NCBI RefSeq assembly: GCF_001592965.1
Contig: NZ_LRPC01000028.1
Coordinates: 186,001-250,000, forward strand
Length of the DNA stretch: 64,000 bases
Direction: 5' to 3'
Origin: Roseivirga spongicola
GTDB taxonomy: Bacteria > Bacteroidota > Bacteroidia > Cytophagales > Cyclobacteriaceae
In this document: one piece after another, positions 9,793-16,913 of the stretch
Numbering within the stretch: the first letter of the stretch is position 1
Layout: the number at the start of each line of letters is the position of its first letter
Program-made: the position numbers and the translations under genes
The notes under the pieces: generated by a model
What the model was told of the DNA's origin: nothing
Databases searched by the model: none
What the model saw: the letters and a program-made list of their open reading frames with translations, nothing else

Positions 9793-10338
9793 TTAACCTA
9801 GATCTTCAGGATAATTGAGGTTTCTGAATACTTCAGAATCAGTTGAATCTGACAAGTGATGTGGGAGTCTGGTGATGCACTTCTGAAGTGAAAGCTCCCT
9901 CTCGTCTAAGAGTTCGTTCAGGAGACTGGTAGCTTCCGATTTCCATAAAGATGGAAAAGGCTCAATTCGCCCATTGCGTTGAAAGCAACGCACCAGTTCA
10001 TGGTTTCCGAAGGCATCAACAAGCTTCAAAAGCAGATTTTTAGTGAGTTGAGGCATATCCACAGGGATGATCAATAAGTCTTTTCCGATGGACTTTAATC
10101 CTGTAAGAATTCCTCCTAGGGGACCAACTGCTTCAAACTGGTCAATAACAGATGGATAGTTTTCAATCAATTCCTTTTGGTTAGGATTGACAGAAAGATG
10201 AAAGTCTATATTTAACGATGCGAATAGCTCAATGGAATAGGTGAGAAGTGGCTTGCCCTGAAGCATAACACTTGTTTTATCTTGTCCCATTCTAGTGCTC
10301 TTTCCTCCACAGAGTATCAAGCCATGAACACTCTTCAT
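9793..10338 (-). CDS. mobA: Molybdenum cofactor guanylyltransferase MobA
   Basis: 181 residues. It starts with the nucleotidyltransferase signature LILCGGKSTRMGQDK and has the GPLGGILTGL and IIPVDMPQL motifs of MobA, which joins GMP to molybdopterin to make MGD for bis-MGD enzymes. Its ATG overlaps the stop of the FdhF/YdeP-type molybdoenzyme by four bases (ATGA), so it is the last gene of the formate dehydrogenase-like operon and probably supplies its cofactor. It ends facing the gyrB terminator. Confidence 0.93.
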   Translation of the reverse strand: MKSVHGLILCGGKSTRMGQDKTSVMLQGKPLLTYSIELFASLNIDFHLSVNPNQKELIENYPSVIDQFEAVGPLGGILTGLKSIGKDLLIIPVDMPQLTKNLLLKLVDAFGNHELVRCFQRNGRIEPFPSLWKSEATSLLNELLDERELSLQKCITRLPHHLSDSTDSEVFRNLNYPEDLG

Positions 10339-12635
10339 TCTCCTTTTTCAATCTTTATCCTAACCATTTTTGAGGCAGGCGTCATGCTTTTTCTAGAGAA
10401 CGAATCTATCGGTACTAATGCATTTGCCTCAGGGAAATAGGTGGCAACATTGGTTCTCGGGATTGGGTAAGGCAACACTATAAACTGGTTGGCTCTTCTT
10501 TTAACTCCGTTGAAATGACTTGTCAGATTAACCACATCAGCTTTTTTGAAGCCTTTGTCTCGCATGTCCTCTTCATTCATCATTACAACCCTGCGTTCGT
10601 TGTAAATGCCACGATATCTATCGTTCAACCCGTAAATGGTTGTATTGTACTGATCATGACTTCTGATGGTCATCATCACAAACTCATCTTCTGCCAACTC
10701 ATGTTTTGGTAGGTCAATTACGGTAAATTCGGCCTTTCCAGAAGTGGTGTTAAACTTGCCTTCTCTAGCGCCATTCGGCAGATAAAATCCACCAGGCTTT
10801 CTTACTTTCTCATTGTATTGTTCGAAGCCTGGAATCACTTTTTCAATGGCTGCGCGAATGTTGTCATAGTTAGAAGCTAAGCCTTCCCAGTCGATTTTAG
10901 AGTTTTTCAAAGTAGCCTTAGCTAACTCGGCTACAATCCTTACTTCACTCAGTAGGTGCTTAGAAGGAGGTGATAAAACCCCTTGAGAACTTTGAACCAC
11001 ACCCATTGAATTTTCGCAACTCACAAACTGCTCTTGGCCATTCTGAATATCCTTGTCTGTTCTACCTAAACAAGGAAGAATAAGGGCTTTCTTTCCGTGA
11101 ACTACATGAGATCTGTTCAGCTTGGTACTTACATGAACCGTCAGGTTACAGTTCTGGAGAGCCTTTGCAGTGAAGTCAGTGTCTGGAGTGGCTGAAAGAA
11201 AGTTTCCGCCCATGGCGAAAAACACTTTGGCCTTTCCTTCATGCATGGCGTTAATCGCAGGAACAACTGCCAAACCATGTGCTCTTGGCGATTTGATTCC
11301 GTGAACTTCATCTAGTTTATCGAGGAAAGAGTCTTTTGGAGCTTCCCAAATGCCCATAGTACGATCGCCTTGTACATTACTGTGTCCTCTAACAGGACAG
11401 GTGCCAGCACCAGGTTTACCGATGGCTCCTTTCATCAGTAGAAGGTTAACGACCTCCTTGATATTATCAACCCCATTTTCATGTTGAGTCAGCCCCATAG
11501 CCCAACAAACTATGATTTTCTCTTTTCGGGCAATCATCTTGGCAGCAGCTCTAACATCTTTTGCCTCTAGTCCACATTGCTTGAGACATGCCATATAATC
11601 AATCTGGCTGATTGCTTTTATAAAGTCTTCATAACCGTTGGTGTGTTTTTCAATGAAGTCGTAGTCAATTAAATCTCCACCTTGATCGATGTCCATCTTA
11701 TGCAACTCATACATCAACGCCTTCAAAAAAGCTACATCGCCATTAATCTTGATGGGTAAGAATAGGTCGGTGATCTTGATGCCGTTAGTAAGCATGCGCT
11801 TCGGGCTCTGCGGATCGGTATATTTTATGAGTCCTGCTTCTGGCAATGGATTTACTGAGATCACCTTGCCGCCATTCACCTTACATTTCTCAATAGCGGA
11901 AAGCATTCTGGGGTGGTTGGTGCCAGGGTTTTGCCCCATGATAATAAGTACTTCAGCTTCATGAATATCTTGAAGTGTAACCGACCCTTTGCCAATTCCT
12001 ACAGTTTCGGAAAGCGCGACTCCGCTCGATTCGTGGCACATATTGGAGCAATCTGGCAGGTTGTTGGTGCCATATGCACGAACAAAGAGCTGGTATAAAT
12101 AGGCTGCTTCATTAGAAGTTCTACCCGAAGTGTAAAAAAGAGCTTCATCTGGAGAATTCAACTGGTTTAGTTCTCTGGCAATGAGTTGAAAAGCCTCCGT
12201 CCAGCTTATTGATTTATAATGGCTAGAGCCTTCATCTAAAAACATGGGCTCAGTAAGCCGACCCGTTTTGCCCATTTCAAAATCTGAAAGCTCTGAAATT
12301 TCCTGAACTGAATATTTAGAGAAAAACTCACTGGTCAGTGCTTTCTTCTGAGCTTCTTCTGCAATGGCTTTAATACCATTTTCGCAGTATTCTCCAATGC
12401 TTGAGCGGTCATCGTCCGGATCTGGCCAAGCACAGCCTGGGCAGTCGAACCCACCTTTTTGGTTAATCTTAAGGCTCAGTTTAATAGCATCTGCAGGCTT
12501 CATGTATTTGGCCATTTGCCCCATGGCAGAACCTATTGCCGCCTTGCCAACAGATGACTCTTTTGGGCCATCGAATTTAAGACCGGTGAATTTTTCGGGT
12601 GGTTGAACCTTAATTTCTTTATTGGACTCGCTCAT
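10335..12635 (-). CDS. FdhF/YdeP family molybdopterin oxidoreductase (formate dehydrogenase-like)
   Basis: From ATG 12635 it has 766 residues. It carries GFDCPGCAWPDPDDD (Cys pair near residues 65/68), a Cys at the Mo-ligand position in SNMCHESSG (about residue 200), the MGD-binding patterns VLIIMGQNPGTNHPRML and CPVRGHSNVQGDRTMG, and a C-terminal molydop_binding domain (FVMMTIRSHDQYNTTIYGL). This is the FdhF/YdeP branch: one subunit, a Cys instead of selenocysteine, and no full ferredoxin-type N-terminus. E. coli YdeP is linked to acid resistance; formate oxidation is inferred from FdhD, MobA and nearby fhs. The frame opens 14 codons earlier, but the inner ATG gives a 17-base overlap with fdhD and a more usual N-terminus. 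Confidence 0.9.
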   Translation of the reverse strand: MSESNKEIKVQPPEKFTGLKFDGPKESSVGKAAIGSAMGQMAKYMKPADAIKLSLKINQKGGFDCPGCAWPDPDDDRSSIGEYCENGIKAIAEEAQKKALTSEFFSKYSVQEISELSDFEMGKTGRLTEPMFLDEGSSHYKSISWTEAFQLIARELNQLNSPDEALFYTSGRTSNEAAYLYQLFVRAYGTNNLPDCSNMCHESSGVALSETVGIGKGSVTLQDIHEAEVLIIMGQNPGTNHPRMLSAIEKCKVNGGKVISVNPLPEAGLIKYTDPQSPKRMLTNGIKITDLFLPIKINGDVAFLKALMYELHKMDIDQGGDLIDYDFIEKHTNGYEDFIKAISQIDYMACLKQCGLEAKDVRAAAKMIARKEKIIVCWAMGLTQHENGVDNIKEVVNLLLMKGAIGKPGAGTCPVRGHSNVQGDRTMGIWEAPKDSFLDKLDEVHGIKSPRAHGLAVVPAINAMHEGKAKVFFAMGGNFLSATPDTDFTAKALQNCNLTVHVSTKLNRSHVVHGKKALILPCLGRTDKDIQNGQEQFVSCENSMGVVQSSQGVLSPPSKHLLSEVRIVAELAKATLKNSKIDWEGLASNYDNIRAAIEKVIPGFEQYNEKVRKPGGFYLPNGAREGKFNTTSGKAEFTVIDLPKHELAEDEFVMMTIRSHDQYNTTIYGLNDRYRGIYNERRVVMMNEEDMRDKGFKKADVVNLTSHFNGVKRRANQFIVLPYPIPRTNVATYFPEANALVPIDSFSRKSMTPASKMVRIKIEKGE

Positions 12636-13419
12636 ATCGGCTGTATAAGTTAAATCTATCTTTTTTAAGAAACCCAATTAGGGTAATGGCCTGTTCTTCT
12701 GCTAAGTCTATAGCTAAACTAGAAGGTGCACCAACACAGGCAACTATTGGTATTCCTGCCATACCGGCTTTTTGCAAAAGTTCAAAACTACCTCTTCCAC
12801 TTAACAGTAGTATGTTGTTGCGGAGTGGCAATTGGCCTTTTGTAAAGGCTTCACCTATCAACTTATCTAAGGCATTATGCCTGCCTACATCTTCTTGGTA
12901 GGAAATCAAAGCGCCTTCGTTTGTAAACAAAGCTGCGGCATGAATTCCTCCTGTCTGATTAAATGTGGTCTGGTATTGTTGAAGGCTTGCAGGTAATTCA
13001 TAGAGCACCTCTTTTTTTACTGTAAGGTCGAAGTTATCGATATCGAAAGAGCTTACTGTATGAATAGCATCTATAGATGCTTTGCCACAAACGCCACAGC
13101 TAGAGGTGGTGTAGAAGTTTCTATCAATTTGCCCAACTTCAATTTGTGCACTGTCTTTTAGGGTAATTAGAATTTCATTTTCTACAAACTCACTTACGCT
13201 AATCACGTCATTGAAGTCTGTCAGAATTCCTTCGGTGAACAAAAAGCCCAGTGCTAAATCAGAGTCGTTTCCAGGTGTGCGCATGGTTATGGAGACCTTG
13301 GTGGTTGTGATTTCGCTTTCCTTTTTCATTGAAATCTCCAAAGGTTCTTCAATAGCAATTGAGTCTTCTACCACTTCGGTAAATGAGTCTACTCGTTTTA
13401 TTTTTCTTGTCTGAATCAC
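12619..13419 (-). CDS. fdhD: Formate dehydrogenase accessory sulfurtransferase FdhD
   Basis: 266 residues. FdhD moves sulfur from IscS to the molybdenum cofactor, needed for active formate dehydrogenases. The functional cysteine motif is seen in SSCGVCGKASID, together with GIHAAALF, QEDVGRHNALDKLIG and LLLSGRGSFELLQKA. The start is GTG at 13419, and GTGA overlaps the stop of the preceding gene by four bases, which fixes the start. It overlaps the downstream molybdoenzyme gene as well, consistent with translation-coupled production of enzyme and maturase. Confidence 0.95.
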   Translation of the reverse strand: MIQTRKIKRVDSFTEVVEDSIAIEEPLEISMKKESEITTTKVSITMRTPGNDSDLALGFLFTEGILTDFNDVISVSEFVENEILITLKDSAQIEVGQIDRNFYTTSSCGVCGKASIDAIHTVSSFDIDNFDLTVKKEVLYELPASLQQYQTTFNQTGGIHAAALFTNEGALISYQEDVGRHNALDKLIGEAFTKGQLPLRNNILLLSGRGSFELLQKAGMAGIPIVACVGAPSSLAIDLAEEQAITLIGFLKKDRFNLYSRYERVQ

Positions 13420-13763
13420 AACTGCTCAGGGTTAGGGTAGAGGTGATCTTCATTTTCATGATCACGCGGATGCAGGCACTGAAAGTCTTTTTCTATCAAA
13501 ACCAGTAATCCATTAGAGAAGCGATATTCAAAACCTACCTGATCATTTTCTGCCCAGCCAGAGGCTTCAGCAATAGGGAGACTTATTGATATATTCGTTC
13601 CTAAAATTTCAGCATGCCAATCTGTTTCTGGCTTCAATTCATAAGAAAAGAGTCCGTTTAAAAGCTTGCATGTTGTATGTATTCTTTCGCCTAAAGACAC
13701 TGCCTTAACCTCTTCTGGGGTTAACCTTAGTCTGATGCTATTTCCGTTTATTCTTAATTTCAT
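13416..13763 (-). CDS. DUF7009-like small protein in formate dehydrogenase operon
   Basis: 115 residues from ATG 13763 (MKLRINGNSIRLRLT), beta-rich, with no signal peptide or membrane segment; the C-terminus is acidic and His-rich (CLHPRDHENEDHLYPN). It resembles the small unassigned DUF7009 family found next to formate dehydrogenase genes in Bacteroidota; I recall this only as a family association. Its start overlaps the DUF3307 stop by four bases (ATGA) and its stop overlaps the fdhD start by four bases. The Cys-x-His-Pro-Arg-Asp-His tail could bind metal, but that is only a guess. An accessory role in molybdoenzyme maturation is inferred from position alone. Confidence 0.65.
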   Translation of the reverse strand: MKLRINGNSIRLRLTPEEVKAVSLGERIHTTCKLLNGLFSYELKPETDWHAEILGTNISISLPIAEASGWAENDQVGFEYRFSNGLLVLIEKDFQCLHPRDHENEDHLYPNPEQL

Positions 13764-14458
13764 GTAGATAAATACCATAGGCTCAAGAGGGTGGCGGTGC
13801 CAAAACTCAAGAGCGTTCCGATTAAAACGTATTCTGTCTTTAAATTGTCTGTGTCTTTGTATCTCAATATAGATTTAGCTGCTATTAAAAAGCCCACGGC
13901 CTCTAAAAGTCCTGCTAAACTCAAAGTTATAATGAGCACTCTTTCTAGGTTTCCTATCAGTTTTCCTGCATTGGGTAGGTCTTTTGCCTCTGGGGTTTTA
14001 ATGCTGTAAGCCCTAAATACTTCTCTTATTAGGATGTTGGCTGGCTTGAGCGCAATTAAATATATCAGCACTAGGTGAATGACTTTGGGGTTGAATTCGA
14101 AAACAGGGTCTAGAACCTCGTTTCTAGTAAACCAGTCAACCGCAATGGCAATAATGATGATGTGCAGAAGCTGATCGATAAAAAAGGCATAAGCCCCTAT
14201 AGGCTTTAGTGTTGTTATTGGCTTTTTGGCTAGGTCAATAAAGAAATGGGTAAAGGCTATGATGGCCGATATGTAGACAAAGTTAACTTGAAATGACAAT
14301 GCCCACGATAGTGCAAAAGTAATGATGATGTGCCAGTAGAGGTATTTACTTTTAACACCCTTCTCGAACTTCTCTTTGGTTGATTTTCCTGTTTGAAAAT
14401 AGAAGTCAGTCAGTATATGGGCTATGAGTTGAAGTAAAAAGAGTTGTCCAAAGGCCAT
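13760..14458 (-). CDS. DUF3307 integral membrane protein
   Basis: 232 residues with about six hydrophobic segments. The N-terminus LFLLQLIAHILTDFYFQT and the histidines in WHIIITFALSW, AFTHFFIDLAKK and FIDQLLHIIIIA match the DUF3307 family, whose conserved His/Asp residues lie in membrane helices. Function is unknown. Family members are often found beside SatD-type genes, as here: its ATG lies one base after the stop of the SatD-like gene. Being translationally coupled to both SatD and the formate dehydrogenase-like genes, it may be a membrane sensor, transporter or electron-transfer partner; this is inference. Confidence 0.82.
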   Translation of the reverse strand: MAFGQLFLLQLIAHILTDFYFQTGKSTKEKFEKGVKSKYLYWHIIITFALSWALSFQVNFVYISAIIAFTHFFIDLAKKPITTLKPIGAYAFFIDQLLHIIIIAIAVDWFTRNEVLDPVFEFNPKVIHLVLIYLIALKPANILIREVFRAYSIKTPEAKDLPNAGKLIGNLERVLIITLSLAGLLEAVGFLIAAKSILRYKDTDNLKTEYVLIGTLLSFGTATLLSLWYLST

Positions 14459-14459
14459 A

Positions 14460-15146
14460 TCATTCAGTTATGGTGTATTGAAAATAGTTGACAGCCGACT
14501 CTATAGCATTGTAACCTAAAGATGTAGAGTGTTGATTAACAACTGGTTGGCTAATGCTAAGGTCGGAGGCTATTTGTTCTTCAGACTTGCCTAAGAGCTT
14601 CAGATAGGCTATTTGACACTGACGGCTTGTGGCTTTGTTAATAGTAAGGTCTAATAGCATCAGCAATGGCTCAAAGCCTCGGTTCAACTTGTCATCATTA
14701 GAAAGAAATTGCAGGGTGTTTTTTACCACAATTCGTTGTTTGCTGTGGGTTGAGTTCTCAGTGATCCATCTGCCAGAGAGGTAGATGGCTTCTCCATCAA
14801 TTATGCCTTTTTGGGCATCAAATCGGCTTAATTCGCCATATCCTATAGCCAATCTGATACCGTAGGTTTTAAAGGCTTTGAATCTATTTTTTTCTTTTTC
14901 TGATAAGACTTTTTCTATAGGTAACGATTTAATGAAACACTTAATGGCTAGTGCAATCTTTAAGGCTTCTCCAGAATTAGGTACAACGCACTCAACGTAA
15001 TCACCTTTGATAATTCTACTGAAAACATCGTAATCCGCCTTCAATTGTGATAGGAATTCTTGGAGTTGGCTTTCCAGAATTCCCTTTTCCTTAGAGTCAA
15101 TACTAGAAGAGGCTATAATATCACCAGAAATAACAGTATACTTCAT
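14460..15146 (-). CDS. SatD family protein with C-terminal helix-turn-helix
   Basis: 228 residues, first gene of the minus-strand operon. Residues 1-130 match the SatD family and follow a nucleotide-cyclase-like pattern: ISGDII (D9), KGDYVECVV (48-55), GIRLAIGYGEL (97-106) and DGEAIYLSGR (118-127). The C-terminal part (about 174-214) has a helix-turn-helix pattern, SEEQIASDLSISQPVVNQHSTSLG, so it looks like a one-component regulator with a ligand- or nucleotide-binding N-terminus. Directly upstream is an array of five CTATA/TATAG half-sites, the last overlapping a TAnnTTTG box that lies so close to the ATG that the mRNA may be leaderless. Autoregulation of the operon is likely but inferred. 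Confidence 0.8.
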   Translation of the reverse strand: MKYTVISGDIIASSSIDSKEKGILESQLQEFLSQLKADYDVFSRIIKGDYVECVVPNSGEALKIALAIKCFIKSLPIEKVLSEKEKNRFKAFKTYGIRLAIGYGELSRFDAQKGIIDGEAIYLSGRWITENSTHSKQRIVVKNTLQFLSNDDKLNRGFEPLLMLLDLTINKATSRQCQIAYLKLLGKSEEQIASDLSISQPVVNQHSTSLGYNAIESAVNYFQYTITE

Positions 15147-15151
15147 AAACT

Positions 15152-15218
15152 CAAATATAGGTAAATAAGACTATATTTAGTATTTATAGGTGAAATAAGC
15201 TATAATGGCTAATTATAG
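15152..15218 (-). promoter_or_regulatory. Half-site array (CTATA/TATAG x5) with overlapping -7 box upstream of satD-like operon
   Basis: Read on the minus strand, five 5-bp half-sites alternate in orientation: CTATA (15214-15218), TATAG (15200-15204), CTATA (15185-15189), TATAG (15171-15175) and CTATA (15156-15160). The start-to-start distances are 14, 15, 14 and 15 bases. Two of the spacers share CTTATTT-AC. The last half-site overlaps TATATTTG (15152-15159), which fits the Bacteroidota -7 consensus TAnnTTTG and ends five bases before the ATG. No good -33 TTTG box is seen at the usual distance. Confidence 0.65.
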
Positions 15219-15230
15219 CCTCTTCTGACT

Positions 15231-16913
15231 TTAAGAGAGACCAGATATTACTCCATCGTCATCAATGCTCATGCCTTCAGAGGCCGGAACGGCTGGCAAA
15301 CCAGGCATACGCATCATTTGACCAAGAATAGGGATAATGAATCCGGCTCCAGCTGCAAACTCAAACTCACGAACACTAACTTCAAAGCCCTCAGGTCTGC
15401 CATGCAAACTTTCGTTGTCGCTAAGAGATTTCTGAGTTTTTGCCATACAAATCGGCATTTGGTCGAACCCAAGTTTCTCCATACGCTTCATTTGAAGTGT
15501 AGCTTTTTTAGAGAAGTCTACAGAATCTGCCCCATAAATTTCTTTAGCAATGGTCTCGATTTTCTCTTGAATCGGCTTCTTCCAGTCGTAAAGCGGTTTA
15601 AACTCATTATCGTCAGCGTTTGCGGCATCTACAACAGCCTCGGCTAAGTTAGTCATTCCAGCGCCACCTTCGGCCCAACCATTCGCCACCACAGCTTTTA
15701 CTTTGTAGTCTTGGCACTTCTCCTGAATTAGCTGAATCTCTTCTTGGGTATCGGAAGGGAAGGCGTTAATGGCTACTACTGGACTAATTCCAAACTTTTG
15801 AATGTTTTCGATATGTTTAGAAAGGTTCGCAAAACCCTTTTCTACTCTTTCAACAGAAGGTGTATTGTATTCTTCAGATTTAGCTCCGCCATGATGGCGT
15901 AATGCTCTAATAGTAGCTACAATTACAACTGCCTTCGGTTTTAAACCAGCTGAAACACATTTGATATTCAGAAATTTTTCGGCACCTAAATCTGCACCAA
16001 AGCCAGCTTCTGTTACTACATAATCTGCTAAGGAAAGCCCCATTTTAGTGGCAATAACCGTATTGGTGCCTTGAGCGATATTAGCAAATGGCCCACCATG
16101 AATAATGGCTGGGTTTCCTTCTAAGGTTTGTACCATGTTAGGCTTAATGGCGTCTTTCAGGAGAATAGCCATCGCATTTTCTGCCTTCAAGTCTTTGGCA
16201 AAAACTGGTTGTTTATCGAAAGTATAGCCAATGAAAATGTTACCTAAACGTTCTTTAAGGTCAGTAAAACTCTCGGCCATACAAAGAATAGCCATTACCT
16301 CTGAAGCAGGAGTAATGTTAAAACCATCTTCTCTTGGTACTCCATTGGCTGTACCGCCCAAACCTATTGTAATCTGGCGCAGAGAACGATCGTTCATATC
16401 CATTACGCGCTTCCAAACAATAGTTCTAGGGTCAATATTCAGGTTATTGGTTTTACTCTGAATATTGTTGTCAATTAATGCTGAAAGTAAATTATTGGCT
16501 TTTTCAATAGCCGAAAAGTCTCCTGTAAAATGGAGATTTATATCTTCCATTGGAATAACCTGAGAATAGCCACCACCAGCAGCGCCACCTTTAATTCCGA
16601 AAACAGGGCCCAAAGAAGGCTCTCGTAATACTGCTACCGTTTTCTTTCCAATCTTATTCATGCCTTCCGTAAGACCAATAGATGTAGTGGTTTTACCTTC
16701 ACCAGCAGGTGTTGGGGTCATGGCAGAAACCAAAATAAGATTGCTTTCCTTTATTTTTTCTTCATTCAATAGCGAAAGCGGAAGCTTAGCTTTGTACTTG
16801 CCGTAATGTTCTAAATGATCTTCGTTTAGGTTGAGTTTGGCTGCAATGGTGTTGATGTGTCTGATTTCTGCAGCCTGTGCGATTTCAATATCGCTCAGAT
16901 GTTTTTTCTCCAT
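15231..16913 (-). CDS. fhs: Formate-tetrahydrofolate ligase
   Basis: 560 residues, the normal length. It makes 10-formyl-THF from formate, THF and ATP. Signatures: the P-loop-like TPTPAGEGKTTTSIGL, LREPSLGPVFGIKGGAAGGG, NLHFTGDFSAIEKANNLL and TEAGFGADLGAEKFLNIKC, with the C-terminal AAGAGFIIPILGQMMRMPGLP. It lies upstream of the SatD-formate dehydrogenase operon on the same strand, but 84 bases and a regulatory array separate them, so co-transcription is uncertain. It links formate to one-carbon metabolism, in keeping with the neighbouring formate dehydrogenase-like enzyme. Confidence 0.97.
   Translation of the reverse strand: MEKKHLSDIEIAQAAEIRHINTIAAKLNLNEDHLEHYGKYKAKLPLSLLNEEKIKESNLILVSAMTPTPAGEGKTTTSIGLTEGMNKIGKKTVAVLREPSLGPVFGIKGGAAGGGYSQVIPMEDINLHFTGDFSAIEKANNLLSALIDNNIQSKTNNLNIDPRTIVWKRVMDMNDRSLRQITIGLGGTANGVPREDGFNITPASEVMAILCMAESFTDLKERLGNIFIGYTFDKQPVFAKDLKAENAMAILLKDAIKPNMVQTLEGNPAIIHGGPFANIAQGTNTVIATKMGLSLADYVVTEAGFGADLGAEKFLNIKCVSAGLKPKAVVIVATIRALRHHGGAKSEEYNTPSVERVEKGFANLSKHIENIQKFGISPVVAINAFPSDTQEEIQLIQEKCQDYKVKAVVANGWAEGGAGMTNLAEAVVDAANADDNEFKPLYDWKKPIQEKIETIAKEIYGADSVDFSKKATLQMKRMEKLGFDQMPICMAKTQKSLSDNESLHGRPEGFEVSVREFEFAAGAGFIIPILGQMMRMPGLPAVPASEGMSIDDDGVISGLS

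Follow-up and report, generated by a model that had tools for sequence, protein, structure and literature searches.

Five short half-sites of alternating orientation lie upstream of a gene for a SatD-like protein of Roseivirga spongicola, which raises the question of what binds them and to what effect. In the window, i.e., the whole stretch of 64,000 nucleotides analyzed here, five alternating CTATA/TATAG half-sites span 15156-15218, over the promoter of this gene (Table 1). Their start-to-start distances are 15, 14, 15 and 14 bases on the + strand, corresponding to 14, 15, 14 and 15 along transcription on the - strand. This is exactly the spacing given by an earlier reading made from the letters alone (the sequence-only reading), as re-reading of the window confirmed. 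Half-sites 1 and 2 together form CTATAATTAGCCATTATAG, with perfect arms of 7 bp. The proximal half-site overlaps the sequence TATATTTG at 15159-15152 (- strand), as had also been described; this sequence fits TAnnTTTG, which we take to be the promoter element at -7 in Bacteroidota. The SatD-like ORF begins with its start codon at 15146-15144.

Table 1 Features of the SatD-like locus, in coordinates of the window.
Feature	Position	Strand	Remarks
Half-site 1	15214..15218	-	CTATA on coding strand (TATAG on + strand); distal array end; identical in L004 and L005
Half-site 2	15200..15204	-	TATAG on coding strand (CTATA on + strand)
Half-site 3	15185..15189	-	CTATA on coding strand (TATAG on + strand); single change in L005
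Half-site 4	15171..15175	-	TATAG on coding strand (CTATA on + strand)
Half-site 5	15156..15160	-	CTATA on coding strand (TATAG on + strand); overlaps -7 box
-7 box TATATTTG	15152..15159	-	Fits TAnnTTTG
SatD-like regulator, 228 aa	14460..15146	-	Proposed array binder; AlphaFold2 pLDDT 94.4
N-terminal class III nucleotidyl-cyclase-like domain, residues 1-150	14697..15146	-	Assigned by fold and D9/D49
C-terminal helix-turn-helix region, residues 171-228	14463..14636	-	PF00196 E 0.00035 and model
Recognition helix, residues 199-210	14517..14552	-	Model; inside best half-site-predicting protein window
DUF3307 protein, 232 aa	13760..14458	-	PF11750 E 2.3e-25; model pLDDT 93.4
DUF7009 protein	13416..13778	-	PF22668 E 9.8e-30; overlaps DUF3307 gene end

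The sequence-only reading held that AT-richness alone would hardly produce such regularity. The longest alternating chain of CTATA/TATAG in the 64-kb window has five members, whereas the longest chain in each of 60 second-order Markov sequences of 64 kb, with every spacing from 10 to 20 allowed, had one (19/60), two (39/60) or three (2/60), in agreement with that view. In a generic de novo test for four sites, the window upstream region was matched by 0/40 shuffles in a first run and by 1/100 in a controlled run. On this generic test the window upstream region alone is not extreme; the strength comes from its relatives.

A search of its own genome for the exact three-site pattern gave three overlapping matches in this array and a single one at another place. 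The extra match lies inside a 1044-aa ORF on contig 2 (L206:3648-6782) and is therefore probably due to chance; this ORF and its neighbors look phage-like, by eye only. A genome-wide regulon was rejected. With up to three mismatches, the three-site pattern gave 71 and 83 matches, similar to 82 and 58 for the control. The two-site pattern CTATA-N9-TATAG, which the sequence-only reading had put forward for a genome scan, was searched as CTATA-N8..11-TATAG and found at 32 places, without any excess over the reversed control (also 32), so that two-site pairs carry no signal.

Orthologues of the SatD-like protein were retrieved by protein search, with identities of 71% (L004), 61-62% (L005) and 43-54% and lower. 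When the upstream regions were compared without gaps, anchored on the proximal half-site, window and L004 agreed at 25/25 half-site positions and at 21/38 spacer positions, and window and L005 at 24/25 and 19/38, respectively. Half-sites and spacing are kept and the DNA between them drifts, which indicates a footprint. Conservation of both features, which the sequence-only reading had named as a check, was thus found in these two relatives, and the period recurs in nearly all homologues analyzed. The word itself fared differently: CTATA/TATAG holds locally, but the close relatives are better described by TATAGG...CCTATA and many homologues use other words.

To follow the array across the SatD family, 185 loci were collected. 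Three of them yielded no SatD ORF (L001, L002 and L122), leaving 182 SatD-homologous ORFs; one has too little upstream sequence, so that 181 were tested, and merging of identical upstream regions gave 175 distinct ones. This homologue set leaves out G148, G093, G289, G102:C5, G227 and further matches, both strong and weak. The scan searched for sets of four alternating 7-mers in which each of the two spacings could take any value between 9 and 19, allowing periods of 18-38, and shuffles were first-order Markov copies imitating the dinucleotides of each sequence. In the first run, 148/181 SatD upstream regions beat all 40 shuffles, with periods of 29 (101), 28 (44), 27 (2) and 20 (1). In the controlled run, a period of 28 or 29 bp was chosen by 164/175 distinct SatD upstream regions in comparison to 42/300 controls, and all 100 shuffles were beaten by 131/175 and 8/300, respectively. 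The controls were upstream regions of mechanically called ORFs in the same loci (300/450 used), many of which may be coding and which are less AT-rich than the SatD upstream regions (GC 0.37 versus 0.28).

As the 175 upstream regions include many close relatives (Aequorivita), counts were also taken after clustering of the SatD proteins. At 50% identity, 40/47 clusters contain the array in at least one member, and at 35% identity the array is found in 12/16 clusters. The 28-29 bp period was not chosen in 11/175 upstream regions (L015, L029, L031, L034, L036, L063, L080, L147, L160, L165 and L173). L080, an Aequorivita MAG, is GC-rich upstream of its satD (upstream of 525), unlike its relatives, and possibly represents a chimeric contig. 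The arrays comprise 4 to 11 half-sites, most commonly 6 (64/153, under a loose extension rule), the minimum of four following from the construction of the scan.

The words within this constant frame change with the lineage. TATAGG is used in the window group, TTATTAG in Aequorivita and TTTATGT in other Flavobacteriaceae; TATCGT, TATCACC, TAGAACC, TGAAACA and AACC types were found in addition, as was TTTAGCC in Marinomonas and Psychromonas. An extra test set of 13 loci was composed of ten plasmid loci and L123-L125, the latter three also being among the 175. Twelve of the 13, including three haloarchaea, carry the array (score reached by at most 1/200 shuffles). Plasmid arrays with the same 28-29 bp period are present in Sphingomonas (TTAGCCC), Agrobacterium (GGGGTAA; one of four records covered), Enterobacter (TCAACCA) and Pseudoalteromonas (ATGTAAC), in the haloarchaea Halorientalis and Haloplanus (GTTCGCC) and Natronosalvus (TACAACC), and in plasmid loci of Salinivibrio and Segatella. 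The Salinivibrio locus is the weakest of the twelve (L221, 1/200 shuffles). The Segatella copri locus (L216) calls for caution, since no array was seen with the annotated start, and the array appeared with a start at 1366, corrected according to a second tblastn match. L220 is unannotated and its start was estimated, and L213/L215 as well as L124/L125 are pairs of close relatives. On plasmid pZXY21 of Arthrobacter (L217), a SatD-like gene without detectable 28-29 bp array was found. Outside the phylum of the window, 11/12 loci show the same period, covering alpha- and gammaproteobacteria and haloarchaea. A fixed period of 28-29 bp with lineage-specific words is thus a property of the SatD family, and a constant period under unrelated words suggests that descent of the DNA is a poor explanation for it.

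The protein encoded downstream was analyzed by structure prediction and profile searches. In the AlphaFold2 model, the N-terminal domain is folded like a class III nucleotidyl cyclase. Foldseek matched it to class III adenylyl/guanylyl cyclases with a best E-value of 3.2e-4; all 50 PDB matches listed are nucleotidyl cyclases, four of them at E≤0.001, with TM-scores of 0.27-0.41 by query length. In class III cyclases, two aspartates bind metal, and the transition-state Asn and Arg belong to a V-N-x-A-x-R motif. Residues D9 and D49 are invariant in 28 homologues, D49 being Asn in L029, and align with the mycobacterial cyclase Ma1120, although the sequence match is weak (E 0.08). The late cyclase motif reads DGEAIYLSGR, in which the Asn seems to be absent (by eye, as the HMMER alignment ends before the motif), and its Arg is absent in several homologues. 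The seemingly missing catalytic Asn leads us to guess at a role in nucleotide sensing rather than as a cyclase.

The C-terminal helix-turn-helix (HTH) noted by the sequence-only reading is seen in the AlphaFold2 model, which places the recognition helix at about residues 199/200-210. The match to PF00196 (LuxR/GerE) reaches 20.6 bits, below the curated cut-off of 23.5, and other SatD members are matched just as often by models of sigma-70 region 4; the HTH resembles both LuxR and sigma-70 region 4 domains. The family PF16264 presumably owes its name to the satD gene in the sat locus of Streptococcus mutans. No match of the window protein to PF16264 was found in Pfam at E≤1, and it is not among the 11/20 aligned members that match this family at E≤0.1. 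Comparison of its profile with PF16264-type SatDs gave an hhalign probability of 98.2 and an E-value of 2.9e-14.

The position of the arrays relative to the promoter was analyzed next to their geometry. A TAnnTTTG box at most 80 nt from the start is present in 72/153 arrays of relatives, a frequency given without a control; the box closest to the end of the array was used. In 64/72 boxed relatives, the positions 19-26 nt upstream of this box, i.e., the -33 zone, fall within the array, and in 45/72 the array reaches or passes the start of the box. The median distance between the array end and the start codon is 25 nt.

With a probability of roughly 0.8, we consider the array to be the self-operator of SatD, which would act as a one-component regulator whose chain assembly represses the satD-DUF3307 operon until a signal releases it. 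We infer that one HTH would read each half-site and that the alternating orientation at 14-15 bp, with its period of 28-29 bp, would guide the cooperative assembly of SatD dimers, arranged back to back, into a chain that covers the core promoter. This chain would repress SatD's own operon until broken by a signal, possibly a nucleotide that binds to the cyclase-like domain, whereupon the operon would be released. Steps of 14-15 bp place successive HTHs about 137 degrees apart (arithmetic, at 10.5 bp per turn). Judging from this spacing, which puts the half-sites off one face of the helix, the assembly would wrap the DNA.

An array over the -33/-7 region fits repression by occlusion and is also compatible with activation. 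LuxR-type HTH proteins are often activators, and SatD could likewise bind the array and activate the operon, or only switch it between states. We regard this as the most serious of the alternatives, though an unlikely one, since the array of most boxed relatives extends into the -33/-7 region and stops shortly before the start codon, which is typical of repression.

The array could also be bound by another regulator, such as a host factor or a global regulator. SatD had been named as the natural candidate because it carries the HTH and is encoded immediately downstream, and its binding is a prediction. Four genomes with two called SatD arrays (G464, G577, G606 and G614) are informative in this respect: the words differ between the paralogues, which are only about 20% identical, as expected if each SatD reads its own array rather than both being read by one shared factor. 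In three more genomes with two SatDs, an array was called at one locus only. All ten loci checked with a partner other than DUF3307 have a 28-29 bp array beating all 100 shuffles, and arrays persist on plasmids of archaea and proteobacteria. Arrays thus accompany SatD irrespective of a DUF3307 partner, which again points to SatD as the binder. In the two genomes scanned no second full array was found, and the array word is confined to the SatD promoter apart from the coding-region match in the window's genome, so that the regulator looks local.

Covariation between the words and the protein was assessed by sliding a window of residues along the whole SatD for related pairs, with the identity of the N-terminal domain partialled out. 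In three clustering settings, half-site similarity was best predicted by residues 201-212 (partial r 0.31-0.33). In a fourth, residues 197-208 were best (0.24), with 209-220 a near tie (0.239), and in the fifth (50% clustering) residues 209-220 were best (0.306 versus 0.219 for 197-208). The family-wise p of 0.0033 is the lowest possible with 300 permutations, which do not preserve phylogeny. Columns 205 and 202 ranked top, and 209 and 199 were also in the top eight, beside 65, 69, 217 and 180. Among related SatDs, the recognition helix is thus the part of the protein that tracks the words best in four of five settings, which argues for SatD as the binder. Over all pairs at 70% clustering, however, overall SatD relatedness predicts the half-sites at least as well as the helix does (Spearman 0.43 versus 0.38; partial 0.26 versus 0.15), as another regulator would allow. 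Weighing these points, we consider binding by another regulator improbable. It is very likely the SatD-like product of the gene itself that binds the array, and conservation, spread across phyla and covariation of word and recognition helix all support the candidate originally named.

A further alternative is that the palindromes act as RNA, forming tandem leader hairpins, e.g., of an attenuator. Every pair of half-sites is an inverted repeat that could fold into a hairpin, and in 15/72 boxed relatives the box lies at least 15 nt inside the array, so that part of it could be transcribed. The other 57/72 arrays, however, are located for the most part ahead of the -7 box or on top of it and would mostly remain untranscribed from that promoter. 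Moreover, a fixed period of 28-29 bp, one repeated word and covariation with the HTH helix are unexpected for hairpins, leaving very little room for this explanation. A chance pattern is refuted by conservation and deserves next to no weight: the upstream region is AT-rich and the window array alone was matched by 1/100 shuffles in the generic test, yet the specific chain test, the footprint in relatives, the family-wide period and the occurrence of GC-rich words (GTTCGCC in haloarchaea, for example) all speak against it.

If SatD is the repressor of its own operon, the DUF3307 partner would be the output. The DUF3307 gene starts 1 nt past the satD stop, and its product is all-helical in the model. 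DUF3307 is encoded by the next ORF in at least 88/121 SatD homologue loci scanned (121/171 downstream ORFs were scanned, and 88 is a lower bound because a few were mispicked or cut). The DUF7009 gene possibly belongs to the same operon. The upstream neighbor encodes a formate-tetrahydrofolate ligase, and the satD-DUF3307-DUF7009 genes are located between it and genes for FdhD and a formate dehydrogenase-like molybdopterin oxidoreductase, in a C1/formate setting; all of these genes lie on the - strand (10335-16913). In ten loci (L052, L053, L054, L055, L059, L061, L064, L146, L149 and L155), the next ORF encodes 105-115 aa without DUF3307 match and with sub-threshold Pfam matches; loci with this partner mostly have TGAAACA-type words. 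Alignment of DUF3307 proteins revealed near-invariant His, Asp and Gln residues (H14, D18, Q22, H43, H71, D75, D95, Q96 and H99). Going by these residues and the model, DUF3307 is possibly a membrane metal enzyme; comparison with the PDB gave no matching fold (best E 0.8).

A role in defense was considered and rejected. DUF3307 had no match in the PADLOC defense library, and SatDs gave only weak PADLOC matches, to HTH parts of CARF/Csa3 (E 0.009-0.018). The N-terminal part of L123 weakly matched PDC-S23 (E 0.022). In phage records, tblastn found no relative of the window DUF3307 or of the L044 SatD, and viral contigs contained no relative of the window SatD. A 134-aa DUF3307-like ORF is listed for a Ralstonia jumbo phage in the portion of PMC8504454 consulted, and phages may thus carry the DUF3307 partner.

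A more far-reaching picture, which we consider doubtful, is that SatD forms a nucleotide-gated, DNA-templated polymer that silences a potentially harmful membrane partner. In such a polymer, two alternating two-fold contacts, one between HTHs and one between cyclase domains, would extend along the available half-sites, and SatD would wrap the DNA like a filament. The partner, DUF3307 or the protein of roughly 110 aa, would stay silent until a nucleotide signal arrives, and lineage-specific words would avoid cross-talk. The operon might then be an addiction-type or signaling module of bacteria and archaea. 

For the self-operator reading itself, a report on S. pyogenes is of interest: according to the sections seen of PMC11323703, satD is essential in transposon screens yet present in only 178/249 genomes. 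Essentiality of an accessory gene would be expected if loss of satD derepresses something harmful, such as a membrane-active partner, and other causes are possible.

In the open-licence literature, no description of a SatD operator or of DNA binding by SatD was found, most subscription papers being outside this coverage. The text sampled from PMC11323703 links the sat genes of S. mutans to acid stress and describes satD as unstudied in other streptococci; Fusobacterium SatD carries an acid-resistance label in the excerpt from PMC10326533. Our analysis suggests a previously undescribed, self-regulating switch that makes use of a nucleotide-cyclase-like fold. A named but uncharacterized family found in bacteria and archaea thereby gains a concrete proposed job, that of a self-specific regulator with fixed operator geometry, and the DUF3307 partner is pointed to as the real output. 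The data suggest that a cyclase fold has been reused as sensor and assembly part of a transcription factor, and they could explain how satD, reported as essential in one streptococcus, can be accessory there. In addition, with its many natural pairs of HTH recognition helix and half-site, the family is useful for learning a recognition code.

The proposed switch can be compared with several known systems. Members of PF16264 share profile similarity and the DUF3307 neighbor with the window protein, which itself does not reach this family in Pfam. Class III cyclases such as CyaB (3r5g) and Ma1120 (4wp8) share the fold, with the D9/D49 positions aligned to Ma1120; SatD differs from them by the late-motif Asn, which by eye seems absent, and by the added HTH. 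Proteins such as Rv0386 likewise join a cyclase homology domain to a LuxR-type HTH, and the parts seen of PMC3466318 mention no self-operator array; the SatDs described here have about 200-235 aa and only these two domains. Type II antitoxin operators, i.e., the alternating palindrome of mazEF and those of phd-doc and kis-kid, are repeated sites through which a small operon is repressed by its own product, often cooperatively, as outlined in the passages available from PMC4803016. The proposed SatD self-operator shares with them the small operon and the repeated half-sites, repression by SatD being a prediction, and the likeness concerns the operator layout alone, not toxin, antitoxin or conditional cooperativity. 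Unlike type II antitoxins, SatD has a cyclase-like fold, and its operators keep one period in bacteria and archaea alike, under changing words.
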